This document shows, in pieces, positions 33,422 to 41,893 of a stretch of 62,042 nt of DNA. The position numbers and the translations under genes are program-made. Every line of letters starts with the position of its first letter. Within the stretch, counting starts at the first letter, position 1. The notes beneath the pieces were generated by a model that saw only the letters and a list, made by a program, of their open reading frames with translations, was not told the origin of the DNA and ran no database searches. The DNA comes from an uncultured delta proteobacterium (GTDB lineage: Bacteria; Desulfobacterota; Syntrophia; Syntrophales; Smithellaceae), in the NCBI GenBank assembly GCA_903907985.1, contig CAIVQG010000025.1:1-62042 (forward strand). Reading direction: 5' to 3'.

Positions 33422-34630
33422 ATGCCAGTTTTTATTTGGGAAGGTACGACCAGAAAAAACGAAGTTAAAAAAGGAGAGCTGGATGCAGTAGATGAACTGG
33501 CTGTTCGCGGCCAGTTGCGCCGACAAGGTTTTAAATCGATTACCATTAAAAAGAAACCAAAAGATATCGCGGAATATTTACCTTTTTTAAAGGGAAAAGT
33601 TCAAGAGAAAGACGTTGTTATTTTTTGCCGCATTTTTTCGACAATGATCAATGCCGGCTTGCCGCTTATTCAATGTCTGGATCTCTTATACCAGCAGGAG
33701 CAAAACAAAGCCTTTCAAGAAGTTATTAAGAAGGTAAAAGAGGATGTCGAAGGCGGCAACAGTTTAACCGAAGCATTAAGGAAGCACCCTGCTGTTTTTG
33801 ATGATCTTTTTGTCAATCTGGTTGCTGCCGGCGAGGCCGGTGGTATTTTGGATGTTATATTGGGACGGCTTTCCAGTTATATGGAAAAGGCAATGAAATT
33901 GAAAAGCCAGGTTAAGGGAGCAATGACTTATCCGGCATCCGTTCTTGTTATTTCGGTTGCTGTTGTCGCCTTACTCCTTCTCAAAGTCATCCCCGTATTT
34001 CAGAAAATGTTTGAGGGTATGGGGGGAGAGCTTCCCGGTCCCACACAGTTTTTGGTAAATGCCAGCGAATTTATGCAGAGTTATTGGTGGATAATGGCGG
34101 GCATTATAGTTGCTTTTTTTATTGCTTTAGGCAGATTTTATAAAACGGAAAAAGGGCATTGGATAATAGATTCTCTGCTACTCAAAGCTCCTGTTTTTGG
34201 TCCACTGTTGAAAAAAGTTGCTGTGGCGAAATTCTCCCGGACGCTTTCCACGATGATGAATTCCGGTGTTCCCATTATGGAAGGTTTATCCATTGTCAGC
34301 AAGACTGCCGGCAATGTGGTGGTTGAAGCCGCCCTGGTAAAAACACGCCAGAGTATCAGTGAAGGACGGACAATTGCGGAGCCTTTAATGGAAACCGGCA
34401 TTTTCCCGCCCATGGTGGTGCAAATGATCGCTGTTGGTGAGGCGACAGGGGCTTTGGATACTATGCTCAGTAAGATTGCCGATTTTTACGATGACGAAGT
34501 AGATGCGGCAGTAGCAGCAATGACGGCCCTTTTAGAGCCTATCATGATGGTTTTTTTGGGGGGGGTTGTTGGCGGCATGATTATCGCGATGTATCTGCCG
34601 ATATTTAAGATGGCTTCTGTCGTTGGTTAA
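33422..34630 (+). CDS. pilC: type IV pilus / type II secretion inner-membrane protein PilC (GspF family)
   Basis: 402 residues with two T2SSF domains: VIFCRIFSTMINAGLPLIQ near 60-78 and KFSRTLSTMMNSGVPIMEG near 275-293 start the duplicated halves, each with EAGGILD or EATGALD motifs. Three membrane segments (about 170, 222 and 375). It forms the platform that links the assembly ATPase to the pilus. It stands alone here: no pilB, pilT, pilin or gsp gene is next to it. It has its own promoter. Confidence 0.9.
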   Translation: MPVFIWEGTTRKNEVKKGELDAVDELAVRGQLRRQGFKSITIKKKPKDIAEYLPFLKGKVQEKDVVIFCRIFSTMINAGLPLIQCLDLLYQQEQNKAFQEVIKKVKEDVEGGNSLTEALRKHPAVFDDLFVNLVAAGEAGGILDVILGRLSSYMEKAMKLKSQVKGAMTYPASVLVISVAVVALLLLKVIPVFQKMFEGMGGELPGPTQFLVNASEFMQSYWWIMAGIIVAFFIALGRFYKTEKGHWIIDSLLLKAPVFGPLLKKVAVAKFSRTLSTMMNSGVPIMEGLSIVSKTAGNVVVEAALVKTRQSISEGRTIAEPLMETGIFPPMVVQMIAVGEATGALDTMLSKIADFYDDEVDAAVAAMTALLEPIMMVFLGGVVGGMIIAMYLPIFKMASVVG

Positions 34631-34670
34631 TTGATAGAACTTAAGCTTGGCTGATTCCGGGACAAAAAAA

Positions 34671-34747
34671 TGGTCGGGATGGCGCGATTTGAACGCGCGA
34701 CTCCTGCGTCCCGAACGCAGTGCCCTACCAAGCTGGGCCACATCCCG
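34671..34747 (-). tRNA. tRNA-Pro (CGG)
   Basis: 77 bases including encoded CCA. Acceptor CGGGATG/CATCCCG, anticodon stem CTGCG/CGCAG with loop TTCGGGA (anticodon CGG), T-loop GTTCAAATC. A T7 run follows directly after the CCA and may terminate transcription. It lies between two plus-strand genes on the opposite strand. Confidence 0.95.
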
Positions 34748-34834
34748 ACGTGGCACGGACGATATAAAATTTATTTCTAAATGTCCACTATTTTTATTAG
34801 ATTTCCAATTTATTATTAAAAAAGGTGATAAACA

Positions 34835-35251
34835 GTGATAATCTTTGACTTGAAATGTGAAAAGGGGCATAAATTCGACGGCTGGTTTAAAGACCGACAG
34901 GCCTTTATTGATCAAAATTCCCAAAAGCTTGTAGCTTGTCCGATTTGTAATAACTCTAATGTTGATATAGTCCCTTCTTCGGTTGCATTTGTAGGAAAAG
35001 ATTCACGCGGGGCCGGTAAGATCGGGGAAAAGGAAAATTCTCCGTTAAAAGTCTTGCAGGCCTTTCATCAATTCATAGATAAAAACTTTGAAGATGTGGG
35101 CAATCAATTTGCCGAAGTTGCCTTAAAGATTCATTTCGGGGAAGAAGAAAAACGCAATATCAAAGGAACAACTACTCCTAGTGAAGAGGCCAGTTTAAAA
35201 GATGAAGGTGTTCAGTTTATAAAAATCCCTGTTCCTAAAATGGATAGTTAG
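34835..35251 (+). CDS. DUF1178 family protein
   Basis: 138 residues beginning with the family's MIIFDLKCEKGHKFDGWF and a second CxxC (CPICNN), which with Cys8 and nearby residues suggests a zinc ribbon. The middle is helical and acidic; function unknown. Starts at a GTG preceded by AAAGGTGATA. It sits ahead of the cysK-cysS fusion with a 95-base gap. Confidence 0.85.
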   Translation: MIIFDLKCEKGHKFDGWFKDRQAFIDQNSQKLVACPICNNSNVDIVPSSVAFVGKDSRGAGKIGEKENSPLKVLQAFHQFIDKNFEDVGNQFAEVALKIHFGEEEKRNIKGTTTPSEEASLKDEGVQFIKIPVPKMDS

Positions 35252-35346
35252 CTTCTGAGTGTTTCGTGTCTTAAAACCGGAATTATTTCAGTAAATTGTA
35301 ATAGGCAATTCTTCGGGGTCTTTTATTTTCAGGCAATTAATAATTT

Positions 35347-37698
35347 ATGCAAAAATATTATAAAAGCATCATTGATAGTGTCGGCAATACACCACTTATC
35401 GAAATTAGCCGGCTTAATCCCAATAAAAAGATAAAGATTCTGGCAAAAATCGAGAGTGCCAATCCCGGTGGATCGATTAAGGATCGCACTGCATTGTTTA
35501 TGATTGAGCAGGCGGAGAAAAGAGGAGAGCTAACTCCTGATAAAATTATACTGGAGGCGACGAGTGGCAATACGGGTATTGGTCTGGCCATGATTGCCGC
35601 TGCCAAAGGATATAAATTATGCCTGACGTTGCCGGAGTCGGTAAGTGAAGAGAGGAAGAAAATTCTGCGCGCTCTGGGCGCCGAGCTGTATTTTACACCG
35701 GCCAATTTGGGGACTGACGGTGCTATTGAAGTAGCATACAAAATGCTCCGCGAAAATGCCGGCAAATATTTCGGCACCGATCAATTCAATAATGAAGATA
35801 ATATAGCCGCTCATTACTATGGAACAGCTCAAGAAATCTGGGATCAAACTGATGGTGCTGTTACGATGGTGGTATCAACCCTCGGTACTTCCGGTACTGC
35901 TATGGGAATTTCCCGCAGGCTCAAAGAATTAAATCCGCAAATTGAAATTATCGGTGTTGAACCGTATTTGAAGCACAAGATCCAGGGACTGAAGAACATG
36001 CGGGAGTCTTACCGGCCAGGCATATTTGATAAGAAGTGCCTCGATGAAAAGGTGAATATCCTCGATGAGGATGCCTTTGCCATGGCACGCCGGTTAGCCC
36101 GTGAAGAGGGAATTATGGCCGGGATGAGTTCCGGCGCGGCGATGTTTATTGCCGCTCAAAAGGCATTGCAAATGCAGGAAGGCCTGATTGTTGTAATTTT
36201 CCCGGACAGCGGAGAGCGGTATTTAAGTACGGAATTGTTTGCTGTCAAAGAGGAAGCATCTACTTTCAGTCTTTACAATATTTTGCAACGCCAGAAATCG
36301 TTTTTCAAACCTGTTAATTCCGGAGAAATTCTCATGCATACGTGTGGGCCTACTGTCCACGACGCACCTCATATGGGTAATTACCGGCGCCTGGTAGTGG
36401 CCGATTTGGTATGCCGCTATTTGATTTATCAGGGTTACTCGGTCAAGCATATAGTAGATATTGTTGATCTCACCGATAAATCCGTAAAAGGTGCAGAAAA
36501 AGAAGGTATGGAACTTGCCGATTATACGAATAAATATTTACAAGTATTTTTACAGGATGCGGAATCTTTGAATATTCGCCAGGACAATATTTACATTAAA
36601 GCATCGGAAAATGTTGATGAGATGCTCAAAATCGTCGAAAAATTAGTCGATAAAAATTACGCCTATGAAAAGCTGCATTCGGTTTATTATGATATTTCCA
36701 AATTAACCGATTACGGGCTTCTTTCCAATGTTAATATACGAAAAACCAGACAGACCAAAACCATTGACCTGGATGATTACGAAAAAGATAGCCCTATGGA
36801 CTTTGCCCTTTTAAAAAGGGCCAGTTTAGGAGAATTAAAAAGAGGTATATATTACAAAACTAAATGGGGTAATGTCCGGCCCGGTTGGCATATCGAATGT
36901 GCCGCGATTTGTCATAAATACCTGGGGGCGCTTTATGATATTAATATTAGCGGGGCAGATGAAGTTTTTCCGCATTGCGAAAATATTTTAGCTATCAACA
37001 AAGCTTTTTCCGGAAGGAGCGGTGCAAATTACTGGCTGAATGCCGAATTGGTGATGGTTGCCGGCCGGAAGATGTCTCGTTCGTTAAATAATGCCCTGCC
37101 TTTGTCGCAATTGTTCCAAAAAGGTTATTCGGGCAGGGATGTGCGTTTTTTCTTGTTGGGGGTGCATTATCGTAAGCCGCTCAACTATTCTGAAGAGGCA
37201 ATGGAGACCGCAAGGAATAATGTAAAAAGACTCGATATGTTTGTATGCCGGCTCAATGCTGTGACTGCTGATGGCAGTGGCTATGCAGAGGTGGATCAGC
37301 TGATTTACGATCTTAAAAACGGATTTGCTGCCGCCTTGGCTGATGATTTGAATATAGCCGTTGCACTGGCTGTTCTTTTTGATTTTGTCGGTAAAATAAA
37401 TTCTCCTTTAAACCTGGGCGCAATAAATAAAAAAGATAGCCGTAAGATATTGGCAGCACTGGAAAAAATAAATGAAATTATTGGAGTGATGTATTTTGAG
37501 GTATTGCCAGCCTCGAAAGAAATACAAGATTTGATTGAGAAGAGAGAAGTCGCGCGAAAAGCGCATAAGTGGCAGGAGGCCGATGATTTGAGATCTCAGC
37601 TAGCTTTGCTCAATATTGAGGTGCTGGATATGCCGCAAGGGACAATCTGGCATTTTAAGTCCATGATAACCGCTGAAAACAAGTTTAACGAAAGTTAA
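35347..37698 (+). CDS. fused cysteine synthase - cysteinyl-tRNA synthetase
   Basis: A 783-residue single frame. Residues 1-300 are an O-acetylserine sulfhydrylase: PLP lysine Lys45 in GGSIKDRTA, SGNTGIGLA, STLGTSGTAMG and GMSSGAAM are intact. Residues about 310-783 are a class I CysRS: CGPTVHDAPHMGN with Cys333, VRPGWHIECAA with Cys518, FPHCENILA with His543, KMSRS at 575-579, and a helical C-terminal domain. Deviations: HIGH reads HMGN, the usual FPHHENE reads FPHCENI, so the fourth zinc ligand (Glu) is Ile and Cys544 replaces a His. The enzyme could make cysteine and load it on tRNA-Cys. No internal stop or frameshift; the linker has no extra domain. Confidence 0.93.
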   Translation: MQKYYKSIIDSVGNTPLIEISRLNPNKKIKILAKIESANPGGSIKDRTALFMIEQAEKRGELTPDKIILEATSGNTGIGLAMIAAAKGYKLCLTLPESVSEERKKILRALGAELYFTPANLGTDGAIEVAYKMLRENAGKYFGTDQFNNEDNIAAHYYGTAQEIWDQTDGAVTMVVSTLGTSGTAMGISRRLKELNPQIEIIGVEPYLKHKIQGLKNMRESYRPGIFDKKCLDEKVNILDEDAFAMARRLAREEGIMAGMSSGAAMFIAAQKALQMQEGLIVVIFPDSGERYLSTELFAVKEEASTFSLYNILQRQKSFFKPVNSGEILMHTCGPTVHDAPHMGNYRRLVVADLVCRYLIYQGYSVKHIVDIVDLTDKSVKGAEKEGMELADYTNKYLQVFLQDAESLNIRQDNIYIKASENVDEMLKIVEKLVDKNYAYEKLHSVYYDISKLTDYGLLSNVNIRKTRQTKTIDLDDYEKDSPMDFALLKRASLGELKRGIYYKTKWGNVRPGWHIECAAICHKYLGALYDINISGADEVFPHCENILAINKAFSGRSGANYWLNAELVMVAGRKMSRSLNNALPLSQLFQKGYSGRDVRFFLLGVHYRKPLNYSEEAMETARNNVKRLDMFVCRLNAVTADGSGYAEVDQLIYDLKNGFAAALADDLNIAVALAVLFDFVGKINSPLNLGAINKKDSRKILAALEKINEIIGVMYFEVLPASKEIQDLIEKREVARKAHKWQEADDLRSQLALLNIEVLDMPQGTIWHFKSMITAENKFNES

Positions 37699-37704
37699 GG
37701 CGTT

Positions 37705-37765
37705 AGTGGAATTGATCCAGAAAGCGCAGCTATTCGGGATCTCGCAGGTCATCATCCCCGCTGTT
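37705..37765. repeat. dispersed intergenic repeat, copy 2
   Basis: Second copy of the element at 29919, shorter by about 25 bases; shares the AGTGGAATTGATCC block, the AAAGCG end, TATTCGGGA and a CCCGCT tail. It lies between the cysK-cysS fusion and the MEMO1 gene. Confidence 0.65.
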
Positions 37766-37802
37766 TTTGTGAGTTGGGGGTCCGTTAAAATGGAGGTGCC
37801 CT

Positions 37803-38624
37803 ATGAAAAATCTGCGAAAATCGGCGATAGCGGGTTCCTGGTACCCCGGTAAATCTGCAACCCTGAGGCAGGAAATCGAAAAGTATTTTGCTTATGTGCC
37901 GGATTTATATCTGGAAGGAGAGATTGCCGGCATTGTTGCTCCTCATGCCGGTTACCTTTATTCCGGGCAAGTGGCGGCCTATGCCTACAAGCTCATTCGT
38001 GGTAAAAAGTACGATGCTGTTGTTATCGTTGGTCCCAGTCATCATGTAGCTTTTCCCGGTGTGTCTGTTTTCAGCCGGGGAGGATATGAGACACCTTTAG
38101 GGATAGTGTCTATTTCCGAAGATTTGGCAGAAAATATTAAAAATTTCAGTGGGATTGTTAAGGATATTCCGGTCGCACATTTACAGGAACATTCTTTGGA
38201 AATTCAGTTGCCTTTTTTGCAAGTTGCTTTAGGCGATGTTCCCTTTGTGCCCCTGGTAATGGGAGATCAGAAGGCCGATACCTGTTACGAATTAGCTGAG
38301 GCAATTTATTCGGCTCTACAAGACAAGAAAGTATTGATTGTGGGCAGTTCCGATTTGTCGCATTTCCATAATTACAATGTGGCTTCGCAGATGGATGCCG
38401 TAGCTTTAAAACATTTACAAAGTGGTGATGCCGCCGGGCTTTTAAAAAGCCTGAATAGCGATATTTGCGAGGCTTGCGGCGGCGGGCCCATGGCCGTTGC
38501 CATGCTGGTCGCGAAAAAGATGGGAGCGGAGAAGGCGCAACTGTTGAAATATGCCAATTCCGGAGATGTAACCGGTGACAAAAGTTCCGTAGTCGGCTAT
38601 GCGGCAGCAGTATATTATTCCTAG
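37803..38624 (+). CDS. MEMO1 family protein (AmmeMemoRadiSam system protein B)
   Basis: 273 residues with the MEMO1 His pattern: APHAGYLYSGQVAA near 42-55, VGPSHHVAFPGVSVF near 78-92, EHSLEIQLPFLQ near 128-139 and CGGGPMAVAM near 224-233, related to extradiol dioxygenases of the LigB fold. Animal MEMO1 binds iron; the bacterial role is not established. GGAGGTGCC precedes the ATG. The AMMECR1 gene follows 14 bases later. The radical SAM member usually seen with these two is not next to them. Confidence 0.9.
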   Translation: MKNLRKSAIAGSWYPGKSATLRQEIEKYFAYVPDLYLEGEIAGIVAPHAGYLYSGQVAAYAYKLIRGKKYDAVVIVGPSHHVAFPGVSVFSRGGYETPLGIVSISEDLAENIKNFSGIVKDIPVAHLQEHSLEIQLPFLQVALGDVPFVPLVMGDQKADTCYELAEAIYSALQDKKVLIVGSSDLSHFHNYNVASQMDAVALKHLQSGDAAGLLKSLNSDICEACGGGPMAVAMLVAKKMGAEKAQLLKYANSGDVTGDKSSVVGYAAAVYYS

Positions 38625-38637
38625 GAGGATTGCTTAA

Positions 38638-39189
38638 ATGGAATTGACCCCAAAAGAAAAAGAGATTCTACTGGATATTGTAAAAAAAACTATTATCGGC
38701 AAAGTCAATAATAAAAAAAATCTTCCCAAGATAACAGTAGATTCGGAAACACTTCAGGAAAAAAGAGGTGCGTTTGTTACTTTAAAAAAGAAAGGTCATT
38801 TGCGGGGGTGTATTGGTTATATCAAGGCGGTTAAGCCGCTCTGGGAAACAGTCCAGGAAATGGCTTTGGCTGCTGCTTTTCATGATCCGCGTTTTCCTTC
38901 ATTACAGGCGGAGGAACTTAAAGATTTGTCATTGGAAATATCCGTATTGAGCCCGCTGCAACGTATAAAAAATATTAATGAAATTGAAGTAGGAAAACAC
39001 GGATTATATATTGTCCGGGGATATAATTCGGGTCTGCTGCTGCCGCAAGTGGCAGTGGAGTATTGCTGGGACAGGGAAACCTTTCTGCGGGAAACTTGTT
39101 ATAAGGCCGGTCTGCCATCTGAGGATTGGATGGATAAAGAAACAGAAATTTATATTTTTTCAGCGGATTATTTTGGTGATACTGATTAG
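38638..39189 (+). CDS. AMMECR1 domain protein (AmmeMemoRadiSam system protein A)
   Basis: 183 residues. GAFVTLKKKGHLRGCIGY contains the family-defining LRGCIG; AFHDPRFPSL and LEISVLSPLQRI follow in the expected order, and PQVAVEYCWDRETFL is near the end. Function unknown; often fused or adjacent to MEMO1. TAGGAGG precedes the ATG at 9 bases. It is the last gene of the rightward run that starts at cysK-cysS. Confidence 0.92.
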   Translation: MELTPKEKEILLDIVKKTIIGKVNNKKNLPKITVDSETLQEKRGAFVTLKKKGHLRGCIGYIKAVKPLWETVQEMALAAAFHDPRFPSLQAEELKDLSLEISVLSPLQRIKNINEIEVGKHGLYIVRGYNSGLLLPQVAVEYCWDRETFLRETCYKAGLPSEDWMDKETEIYIFSADYFGDTD

Positions 39190-40432: not shown

Positions 40433-41893
40433 ATGAAGATAATTGCAGCATATCTATCTTTGTTCTTCCTCGGAGTTTTCTTTTTTTGCCCCAATGCAGT
40501 TGCCCAAAACAATAACAAAGCCATTCTGATCGGCATCAGCCAATATGCGGATATCGATGGTCTGCGGTATGCCGACGAGGATGTCCGGATGTTACACGCA
40601 ATGCTGACAAATTATGCCGGATATCGTTCGGCTGATATTGTTTTACTGTTAAACAGCGAGGCCACCAAGCAGCGGATTATCAATGCCATAATGGACTTGG
40701 TCAGACAGAGTCAGAAAAAACCGCTGGATCATGTGATGTTTATGTTTGCCGGACATGGCCTACCCCCCAATATTAAATCAAGCACCAGCAACGCTTTTCT
40801 GGCTCCCTACGATGCCCAGATAGTTACTCCAAATGGGAAAAGTGCCTTTTATAAAGAGTCCGGTGGGCTGATCAATAACGAGACATTCATCAACAAAGCG
40901 TGGCTTATCAAACAGCTTTCTGATGTCCAAGCCAAGGAAATTGTTTTGATTCTGGATTCCTGTTACAGCGGAGCCAAAAACTTCGGTGCACTGTTTGCAG
41001 AGAATTTGGGCTTCACCGTTGAACTGGAAGGGGGGAGCGGCGAGCAGAGAGGTGTGGTAATTGTACAGAAGAAAAGCGCCGTGGATTTAAGCCAAACCAA
41101 AATAGCCTTTATTGCTTCCAGTAATGAAAACCAGCCTTCGGCGGAATATGCTGAACTGAAGCACGGTGCTCTGAGCTATTGTATTTTTGAATATATCAAC
41201 ACTGTGCGGAAGAATACCGATGTCTCGGACATGCGAGAAATAACGGTTAGCGGTATGTACAGCAATGTAACTAAACTGTTTGATCAGGTGGAAGTCAGAG
41301 GCGCTTCGCTTTCTTCCCGGCACCAACCGGTACTATTTGCAATACCGAGCTACGATACTATAATCGGGATGAAATTTGTTTCCGTCAATGGCAATAAAAA
41401 ACCACGGATTAAAACAGGAACAATCGAAATTATATCCGACCCGGAGAATGCGGAAGTTTCCATTGACGGTGTCAGTACAGGTAAGCGTTCCAACTGTTCT
41501 CTGGAACTTACCGAAGGCAAACACATGGTTTCCCTGTTTCTCAGGGAAACAAATTATATGTACAGTCTTATGGTTGATATTAAGGATGGTCAGCATCAAC
41601 AAGAAACAATCTCGTTGAGGGGTGCTTTGGCAGTTGAGTCTTTTTCGGATAACCCTTCTATGAAATTGCCCAAGCTGAAGGCATATCTAGATAATCAAGA
41701 GGTTGAAGTATCCGGAAAGCAAATGAAAAACATTATTGCCGGAACGCATTCTCTGAAAGTCCTTGTAGAAAATGTCGAAAAGACAAGACAGATTGAAATC
41801 AGGCCGAGATCACCATTGCTCGTCCGTTACAAAATTATCAGAGAAGCTCCTAAGCCGCCGCCAAATAACAATGCTGATAATGTTTCTTTCTGA
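40433..41893 (+). CDS. secreted caspase-like (C14) protease with PEGA domain
   Basis: 486 residues. Signal peptide ends near VAQ (about 25). The caspase-like domain follows: KAILIGISQYADIDGLRYA, catalytic His108 in FAGHG and Cys177 in DSCYSG, then SSNENQPSAEY. Residues about 328-370 form a PEGA domain (GTIEIISDPENAEVSIDG, LTEGKHMVSL), a surface or cell-wall associated module, and a second PEGA-like segment with AGTHSLKVLVEN follows near 430. It likely acts in the periplasm or on the surface. Substrate unknown. ATG context is weak. Confidence 0.88.
   Translation: MKIIAAYLSLFFLGVFFFCPNAVAQNNNKAILIGISQYADIDGLRYADEDVRMLHAMLTNYAGYRSADIVLLLNSEATKQRIINAIMDLVRQSQKKPLDHVMFMFAGHGLPPNIKSSTSNAFLAPYDAQIVTPNGKSAFYKESGGLINNETFINKAWLIKQLSDVQAKEIVLILDSCYSGAKNFGALFAENLGFTVELEGGSGEQRGVVIVQKKSAVDLSQTKIAFIASSNENQPSAEYAELKHGALSYCIFEYINTVRKNTDVSDMREITVSGMYSNVTKLFDQVEVRGASLSSRHQPVLFAIPSYDTIIGMKFVSVNGNKKPRIKTGTIEIISDPENAEVSIDGVSTGKRSNCSLELTEGKHMVSLFLRETNYMYSLMVDIKDGQHQQETISLRGALAVESFSDNPSMKLPKLKAYLDNQEVEVSGKQMKNIIAGTHSLKVLVENVEKTRQIEIRPRSPLLVRYKIIREAPKPPPNNNADNVSF

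Follow-up and report, generated by a model that had tools for sequence, protein, structure and literature searches.

A fused cysteine synthase and cysteinyl-tRNA synthetase-like protein widespread in Desulfobacterota, and its possible role as a tRNA-Cys-reading cysteine synthase

The fusion gene and its predicted protein

The window, the whole 62,042-nucleotide stretch of DNA analyzed here (contig CAIVQG010000025.1 of assembly GCA_903907985.1, from an uncultured delta proteobacterium placed in the order Syntrophales of the phylum Desulfobacterota), carries on its plus strand a gene in which a cysteine synthase is joined to a protein resembling cysteinyl-tRNA synthetase (CysRS). The original prediction was that one uninterrupted frame links an intact PLP-dependent cysteine synthase, with Lys45, to a class I CysRS. 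These structural claims were confirmed: the frame at 35347-37698 runs for 783 codons, the synthase half scores above its family cut-off and has a Lys45 that is invariant among the fusion proteins compared, and a full-length CysRS-like half follows, itself above the cut-off of TIGR00435. The features of the gene are as follows, with positions in the CysRS-like half matched to the E. coli enzyme by residue comparison.

35347..37698, plus strand: cysteine synthase/CysRS-like fusion gene, 783 aa, ATG to TAA with the stop included and no internal stop
35374..36240, plus strand: the half that forms a CysM-type, PLP-dependent cysteine synthase, residues 10-298, above the TIGR01136 cut-off and, among solved structures, nearest in sequence to CysM chains (2v03/2bhs)
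35479..35481, plus strand: Lys45, the PLP lysine, invariant in 61/61 fusion proteins
36241..36267, plus strand: linker, residues 299-307, between the two family matches, with pLDDT <50 at 301-303
36268..37653, plus strand: CysRS-like half, residues 308-769, TIGR00435 score 376.7 bits
36343..36345, plus strand: Cys333, equivalent to E. coli C28, kept
36370..36381, plus strand: HIGH motif, present as HMGN at residues 342-345, kept
36463..36465, plus strand: Val373, equivalent to E. coli T68, changed
36898..36900, plus strand: Cys518, equivalent to E. coli C209, kept
36973..36987, plus strand: HCENI, residues 543-547, equivalent to E. coli HHENE 234-238, with H234 kept, H235 replaced by C (C544) and E238 by I (I547)
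37069..37083, plus strand: KMSKS motif, present as KMSRS at residues 575-579, kept
37543..37584, plus strand: R733, R737, W742 and D746, equivalent to E. coli R423, R427, W432 and D436, all kept (positions from the G34-contact list in the accessible text of PMC12684709)

Four Pfam models match the protein above cut-off: PALP at residues 10-287 (234.6 bits), tRNA-synt_1e at 320-623 (274.1), DALR_2 at 660-714 (39) and CysS_C at 723-766 (24.9). By Pfam and NCBIfam the CysRS-like half is full-length: it comprises a catalytic domain, a DALR domain and, at the C-terminus, an anticodon domain. The NCBIfam scores exceed the cut-offs of the cysKM model TIGR01136 (364.2 vs 344.15 bits) and of the cysS equivalog TIGR00435 (cut-off 340), and fall below those of the exact cysM equivalog TIGR01138 (361.8 vs 394.2) and of the exact cysK model. 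Ten fusion proteins chosen from the family all scored above the TIGR01136 cut-off, and four of the ten scored below that of TIGR00435. The synthase half has the fold, PLP lysine and loops of CysM and CysK (O-acetylserine sulfhydrylases B and A), but unlike them it carries a CysRS half and lies below the exact-model cut-offs.

An AlphaFold2 model of the protein had a mean pLDDT of 90.2 and a pTM of 0.77. Both halves were predicted confidently, with pLDDT <50 only at residues 301-303, 475-479 and 774-783. In a Foldseek search the model matched solved CysRS structures (8qhp, 1u0b) as well as cysteine synthases, and structure alignment of the synthase half with solved CysM (2bhs) gave 44% identity. 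A tandem-repeat scan found no repeats, and scans for promoters and terminators returned about as many hits as expected by chance (10 vs 7.4 and 6 vs 3.9, respectively).

Distribution and tree position

Fusions of this kind had been predicted to be rare, which did not hold. In a sample of 149 genomes from the order, 124 had a fusion-type CysRS match, 112 of them in frames ≥700 aa and the remaining twelve in frames <700 aa; because 112 genomes show the family in such long frames, the fusion is no accident of assembly. At least 146 of 395 genomes in a phylum sample, from 46 families, also bear it, counting the matches listed, in frames ≥700 aa and down to about E 1e-85, a count that leaves out, for example, G162 and G219. 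(The order-sample counts and the phylum cross-table below were compiled by hand-copying from search listings.) Together the order and phylum counts rule out a rare or accidental fusion. Among the matches listed for named loci, at least 11 of 80 held the fusion; the search patterns were all taken from the synthase half, and the figure is no census. Nine of these 11 are filed under Thermodesulfobacteriota, including Desulfobacterales, Desulfobulbus, Desulfocapsa, Desulforapulum, Desulfobacula and Caldimicrobium, and the other two are 'Deltaproteobacteria' filed under Myxococcota, again among the matches listed.

The CysRS half in the window is ~33-38% identical to canonical CysRS, among the matches listed. 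A tree was built from the CysRS halves of 36 fusion proteins, a distant MetRS and 22 canonical CysRS, of which 21 came from the order and one from E. coli; in it, a single branch with support 98/89 separated the fusion halves from the canonical enzymes. The fusion is real, old and widespread in the phylum, and the window's copy is an ordinary member of the family.

Canonical CysRS in fusion-bearing genomes

The genome from which the window comes (3.4 Mb in 83 contigs, rated 100% complete and 4.5% contaminated) encodes a canonical CysRS as a 500-aa frame on another contig (G000:C43), so the fusion is not its sole CysRS. A separate cysS had been named beforehand as one half of what would count against the original prediction, the other half being a fusion with no charging activity. 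The search for a separate cysK likewise succeeded, with a stand-alone cysteine synthase on G000:C56. In the order sample as a whole, canonical CysRS occurred in 128 of the 149 genomes: both types were present in 110, the canonical type alone in 18, the fusion type alone in 14 and neither in seven. One genome bearing both types has a further CysRS, a 474-aa frame ~52% identical to the canonical query (L080, at G018:C222), which is counted among the 21 canonical CysRS from the order.

The 14 fusion-only genomes (G025, G056, G066, G071, G077, G083, G088, G090, G109, G115, G116, G140, G141 and G148) are all drafts of 150-610 contigs, and draft gaps are a likely explanation for the missing canonical CysRS. 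A more sensitive search of these 14 found canonical pieces in three (G025, G141, G148) and none in the other 11. For those 11, the result would be accounted for by gaps in the drafts or, alternatively, by tRNA charging through the fusion in these lineages. Three of them, G071, G077 and G083, are rated 93-99% complete (and 6-7% contaminated), so that a charging role is possible there.

These genomes bear on the main rival to the interpretation developed below, namely that the fusion is a true second CysRS whose charging site receives cysteine directly from the synthase to which it is attached. The 11 order drafts without any canonical piece favor this, as does a TIGR00435 score above cut-off, and it is strongest within the order. 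The coexistence of canonical CysRS in 110 of the 124 fusion genomes there, and in the window genome, argues against it. Taken with the residue evidence, which cuts both ways, we consider a second CysRS unlikely, though deserving of serious weight.

Residues kept and lost

Residues were compared, in E. coli numbering, between 21 canonical CysRS and 102 distinct fusion proteins, 62 from the order and 40 from outside it; the set omits identical copies and two proteins cut by contig ends (L030 and L066). The accessible text of PMC12684709 names R423, R427, W432 and D436 as the residues that contact G34 of tRNA-Cys. Of these, R423 and D436 were present in 102/102 fusion proteins, R427 in 100/102 and W432 in 89/102, the remaining 13 carrying F or Y. 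Also unchanged in 102/102 were R439 and D451 in the anticodon region and W205, H206, D69 and H234 in the catalytic domain, which indicates that the catalytic domain is still constrained and that the CysRS half is no bare tRNA clamp.

The ATP motifs behaved differently inside and outside the order. Inside it, HIGH was intact in 62/62 proteins and KMSKS in 61/62, suggesting that the ATP site is live; outside it, HIGH was intact in 23/40 (lost in 17) and KMSKS in 11/40 (lost in 29), with both motifs present in 11 of the 40 and neither in 17. When 49 proteins (all 40 from outside the order and nine from within) were placed on a tree, well-supported branches forced at least six changes in HIGH and seven in KMSKS, the best counts being 9 and 10. 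In the 21 canonical CysRS of the order there was no variation at sites 37, 39, 266-268, 270, 423, 427, 432 and 436.

Over all columns that are invariant in canonical CysRS, mean retention in the catalytic, middle and anticodon regions was 0.61, 0.53 and 0.76, respectively, outside the order and 0.57, 0.51 and 0.78 within it. Anticodon-region positions 405, 409 and 456 were mostly lost outside the order. Given this uneven retention, the case for tRNA reading rests on the G34 contacts as against the ATP motifs, and not on the domain as a whole.

The amino acid pocket was altered too. At C28, C209, H234 and E238, which we take to be the four zinc ligands of CysRS, the canonical residue occurred in 95, 99, 102 and 30 of the 102 fusion proteins, respectively. 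The window protein keeps C, C and H and has I in place of E238, and so lacks the complete set. Within the order, in a set of 63 proteins of which two are incomplete, T68 was replaced by V, I or M, H235 by C or G, and E238 by V, I or L, each in 63/63. The CysRS-like half shares full-length domain order and anticodon residues with bacterial CysRS (1li5/1u0b, 8qhp), and differs from it in the zinc/cysteine pocket in the order and in the lost ATP motifs elsewhere. For a second CysRS, then, the evidence is divided: the window protein keeps HIGH, KMSKS, C28, C209, H234 and the anticodon residues, and nearly all 62 order members retain the ATP motifs, but the three pocket replacements are universal in the order and many relatives have no ATP motifs.

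On the synthase side, K45, SGNT 73-76, G180, T181, G183, T184 and S261 were invariant in 61/61 fusion proteins. These presumably comprise the PLP lysine and residues with substrate- and phosphate-loop roles. K216 was likewise invariant in 61/61, and may be linked to phosphate binding. An invariant synthase site, together with repeated loss of the ATP motifs, is consistent with a CysRS half that serves as a mere scaffold or is a remnant in slow decay, such that the synthase alone matters. We regard this as quite improbable in view of the eight positions (R423, D436, R439, D451, W205, H206, D69 and H234) that are unchanged in 102/102; moreover, the CysRS half of the window protein is predicted with high confidence to fold over its full length.

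Relationship to CysRS paralogs

Two CysRS relatives with roles of their own were considered as possible identities for the CysRS half. The first, CysRS* of Desulfobacterales, is a second CysRS that has no anticodon domain and is associated with SelC*/SelB* (accessible text of PMC9437257). The fusion instead keeps the anticodon region (CysS_C, DALR_2) and has an attached synthase, and its anticodon domains rule out identity with CysRS*. The second, the mycothiol cysteine ligase MshC, is a CysRS paralog according to the same text. The window protein scores 185.3 bits against TIGR03447, far below the cut-off of 485.1, and has DALR_2 and CysS_C domains; on this score, identity with MshC is likewise ruled out.

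A broader possibility is amino acid activation by the CysRS half for a purpose other than translation, or of an amino acid other than cysteine, as in an MshC-like ligase or in a synthetase for another beta-substituted alanine that the synthase half would make. The intact ATP motifs and systematically changed pocket of the order fit this reading, and CysM is described, in the accessible part of PMC9855970, as also taking thiosulfate as sulfur donor. It is nevertheless distinctly improbable, given the low MshC score, the retention of G34-reading residues that a tRNA-free ligase would not need, and the finding that no fusion neighbor recurs beyond 8 of 40 phylum loci.

The cysteine pathway in bearers

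The window genome has a serine-acetyltransferase (SAT)-like gene on contig C12, which at 160.8 bits lies below the TIGR01172 cut-off of 210.65. Eighteen near-complete genomes, 17 of them with the fusion, fell into two groups. Nine (one without the fusion) had an extra cysteine synthase above cut-off, and each of them also gave a SAT-like match with an E value of 2e-45 or lower; in the nine that have the fusion as lone synthase there was no SAT match better than 2.5e-21. The SAT-like match was above the curated cut-off in 1/18.

The same association appeared among the phylum bearers. Here a synthase was scored as the only one if the genome had a single TIGR01136 match with an E value of 1e-60 or lower, with at most five candidates scored per genome, and a gene as SAT-like if it matched TIGR01172 at E 1e-30 or better, a definition that covers the CysE-type fold only. 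Among the matches listed, 69/146 bearers had the fusion alone and no SAT-like gene, 3/146 the fusion alone with a SAT-like gene, 4/146 an extra synthase and no SAT-like gene, and 70/146 an extra synthase with a SAT-like gene; this table counts related genomes, so that the p-value computed from it is an overstatement, and both main states occur together in 9 of the 46 families. The 69 bearers without a CysE-type acetyltransferase set the fusion further apart from CysM and CysK. Overall, 73/146 bearers had no CysE-type source of O-acetylserine among the matches listed, which leaves a gap in their pathway annotation.

Outside the order, HIGH was kept in 15/19 proteins from genomes without a SAT-like gene and in 8/21 from genomes with one (Fisher p 0.012, relatedness ignored), and both ATP motifs were kept in 8/19 and 3/21, respectively (p 0.078). 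The commoner retention of HIGH where no SAT-like gene was found is a hint that a lone fusion synthase may depend on ATP chemistry.

No SepCysS was found above cut-off in 15 genomes, including the nine with the fusion as lone synthase, and a Sep-tRNA route to cysteine was rejected on this basis. O-phosphoserine was considered as a possible donor: among 15 genomes serC (TIGR01364) was above cut-off in two, and the remaining 13 gave weak matches. Absence of serC is no proof that the pathway is absent: in the accessible text of PMC7311316, two Desulfovibrio vulgaris strains are thought to make serine although no standard SerACB pathway was found in them. For lineages in which the fusion is the lone synthase detected and no CysE-type enzyme turned up, it is conceivable, but very improbable, that the CysRS half holds tRNA-Cys while the synthase acts on a tRNA-activated or tRNA-bound serine derivative. 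Were this so, it would be a third tRNA-linked route to cysteine, besides free synthesis followed by CysRS, and SepRS-SepCysS.

A putative tRNA-Cys-reading cysteine synthase

A synthase site that looks intact, tRNA-reading residues that are nearly always retained, ATP motifs that are dispensable in many lineages and the presence of a separate CysRS are together best explained by a cysteine synthase that adjusts its output through tRNA-Cys bound to its CysRS-derived half. We put this forward tentatively, as a reading of sequence data that may be right but is far from secure. The CysRS half would bind tRNA-Cys, uncharged or charged, and pass its charging state to the attached synthase, so that cysteine would be made when uncharged tRNA-Cys accumulates. 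Control at this point would matter because 69 of the 146 bearers listed showed no cysteine synthase apart from the fusion. In the window's order the ATP site is intact and the cysteine/zinc pocket is changed, so the CysRS half there may have kept amino acid activation at a slow rate or with a different specificity. That intact ATP site, along with the hint from HIGH and SAT-like genes, is the weakest point of the tRNA-Cys-reading proposal. The original prediction that the fusion hands newly made cysteine to its own charging site appears unlikely to hold for the family as a whole, because the ATP motifs are missing from many members outside the order.

HisZ, a class II protein on a separate chain, offers the closest parallel, and the fusion would work as HisZ does on HisG, with tRNA the likely signal. 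HisZ is a paralog of HisRS that has no adenylation activity, regulates HisG and mediates inhibition by histidine (accessible text of PMC9437257). In both cases a synthetase paralog is linked to the pathway that makes its cognate amino acid, the regulatory role being, for the fusion, a proposed one. The fusion differs in being class I and a single chain and in keeping tRNA-reading residues. Its ATP motifs are intact in the window protein and lost in many relatives.

If the proposal is correct, cysteine supply in many bacteria of the phylum would be set by tRNA-Cys charging at the enzyme itself, a control beyond gene regulation or the usual acetyltransferase-synthase complex, and the protein would correspond to HisZ-HisG in fused form. 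The route from synthetase paralog to regulator would then be testable, as intact, pocket-altered and motif-less members lie on one tree. Naming the gene by the cysS model, whose curated cut-off the window protein passes, would mask these peculiarities.

The fusion was not named in the titles and abstract beginnings of the open-access literature searched; most subscription papers lay outside this scope, and a report elsewhere is possible. Nor is it described in the accessible portions of PMC5424206, PMC2922099, PMC9437257, PMC8762117, PMC12684709, PMC9855970, PMC12910592 or PMC7311316. The proposed role of a tRNA-Cys-reading cysteine synthase would be new within this literature.

Gene neighborhood and RNA elements

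No T-box or other Rfam family except tRNA reached its gathering score in 34600-37900, which gives no support to control by such an RNA element. The idea that an odd tRNA-Cys adjoins the gene was also discarded, as no such tRNA-Cys lies beside the fusion in the window or in 40 order loci. The usual neighbor is tRNA-Pro(CGG), found near the fusion in 36/40 order loci; in the window its gene lies upstream of DUF1178 at 34671-34747 on the minus strand, the opposite strand to that of the fusion.

Among 41 order loci, the DUF1178 cluster occurred in 33, MEMO in 18 and AMMECR1 in 16. The window's neighbors had no relative in 40 phylum loci (39 with fusion context), so that DUF1178, MEMO and AMMECR1 carry no functional weight, and a functional tie between them and the fusion was ruled out. 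In the window, MEMO (37803-38624) and AMMECR1 (38638-39189) stand in tandem directly downstream of the fusion. Two other loci (L038 and L043) instead have there a single frame of 473-474 aa with a MEMO-like start, and our guess, from its length, is that this frame also contains AMMECR1. About 2.7 kb downstream of the fusion, at 40433-41893, the window also encodes a caspase-like (Peptidase_C14) protein with a PEGA domain.
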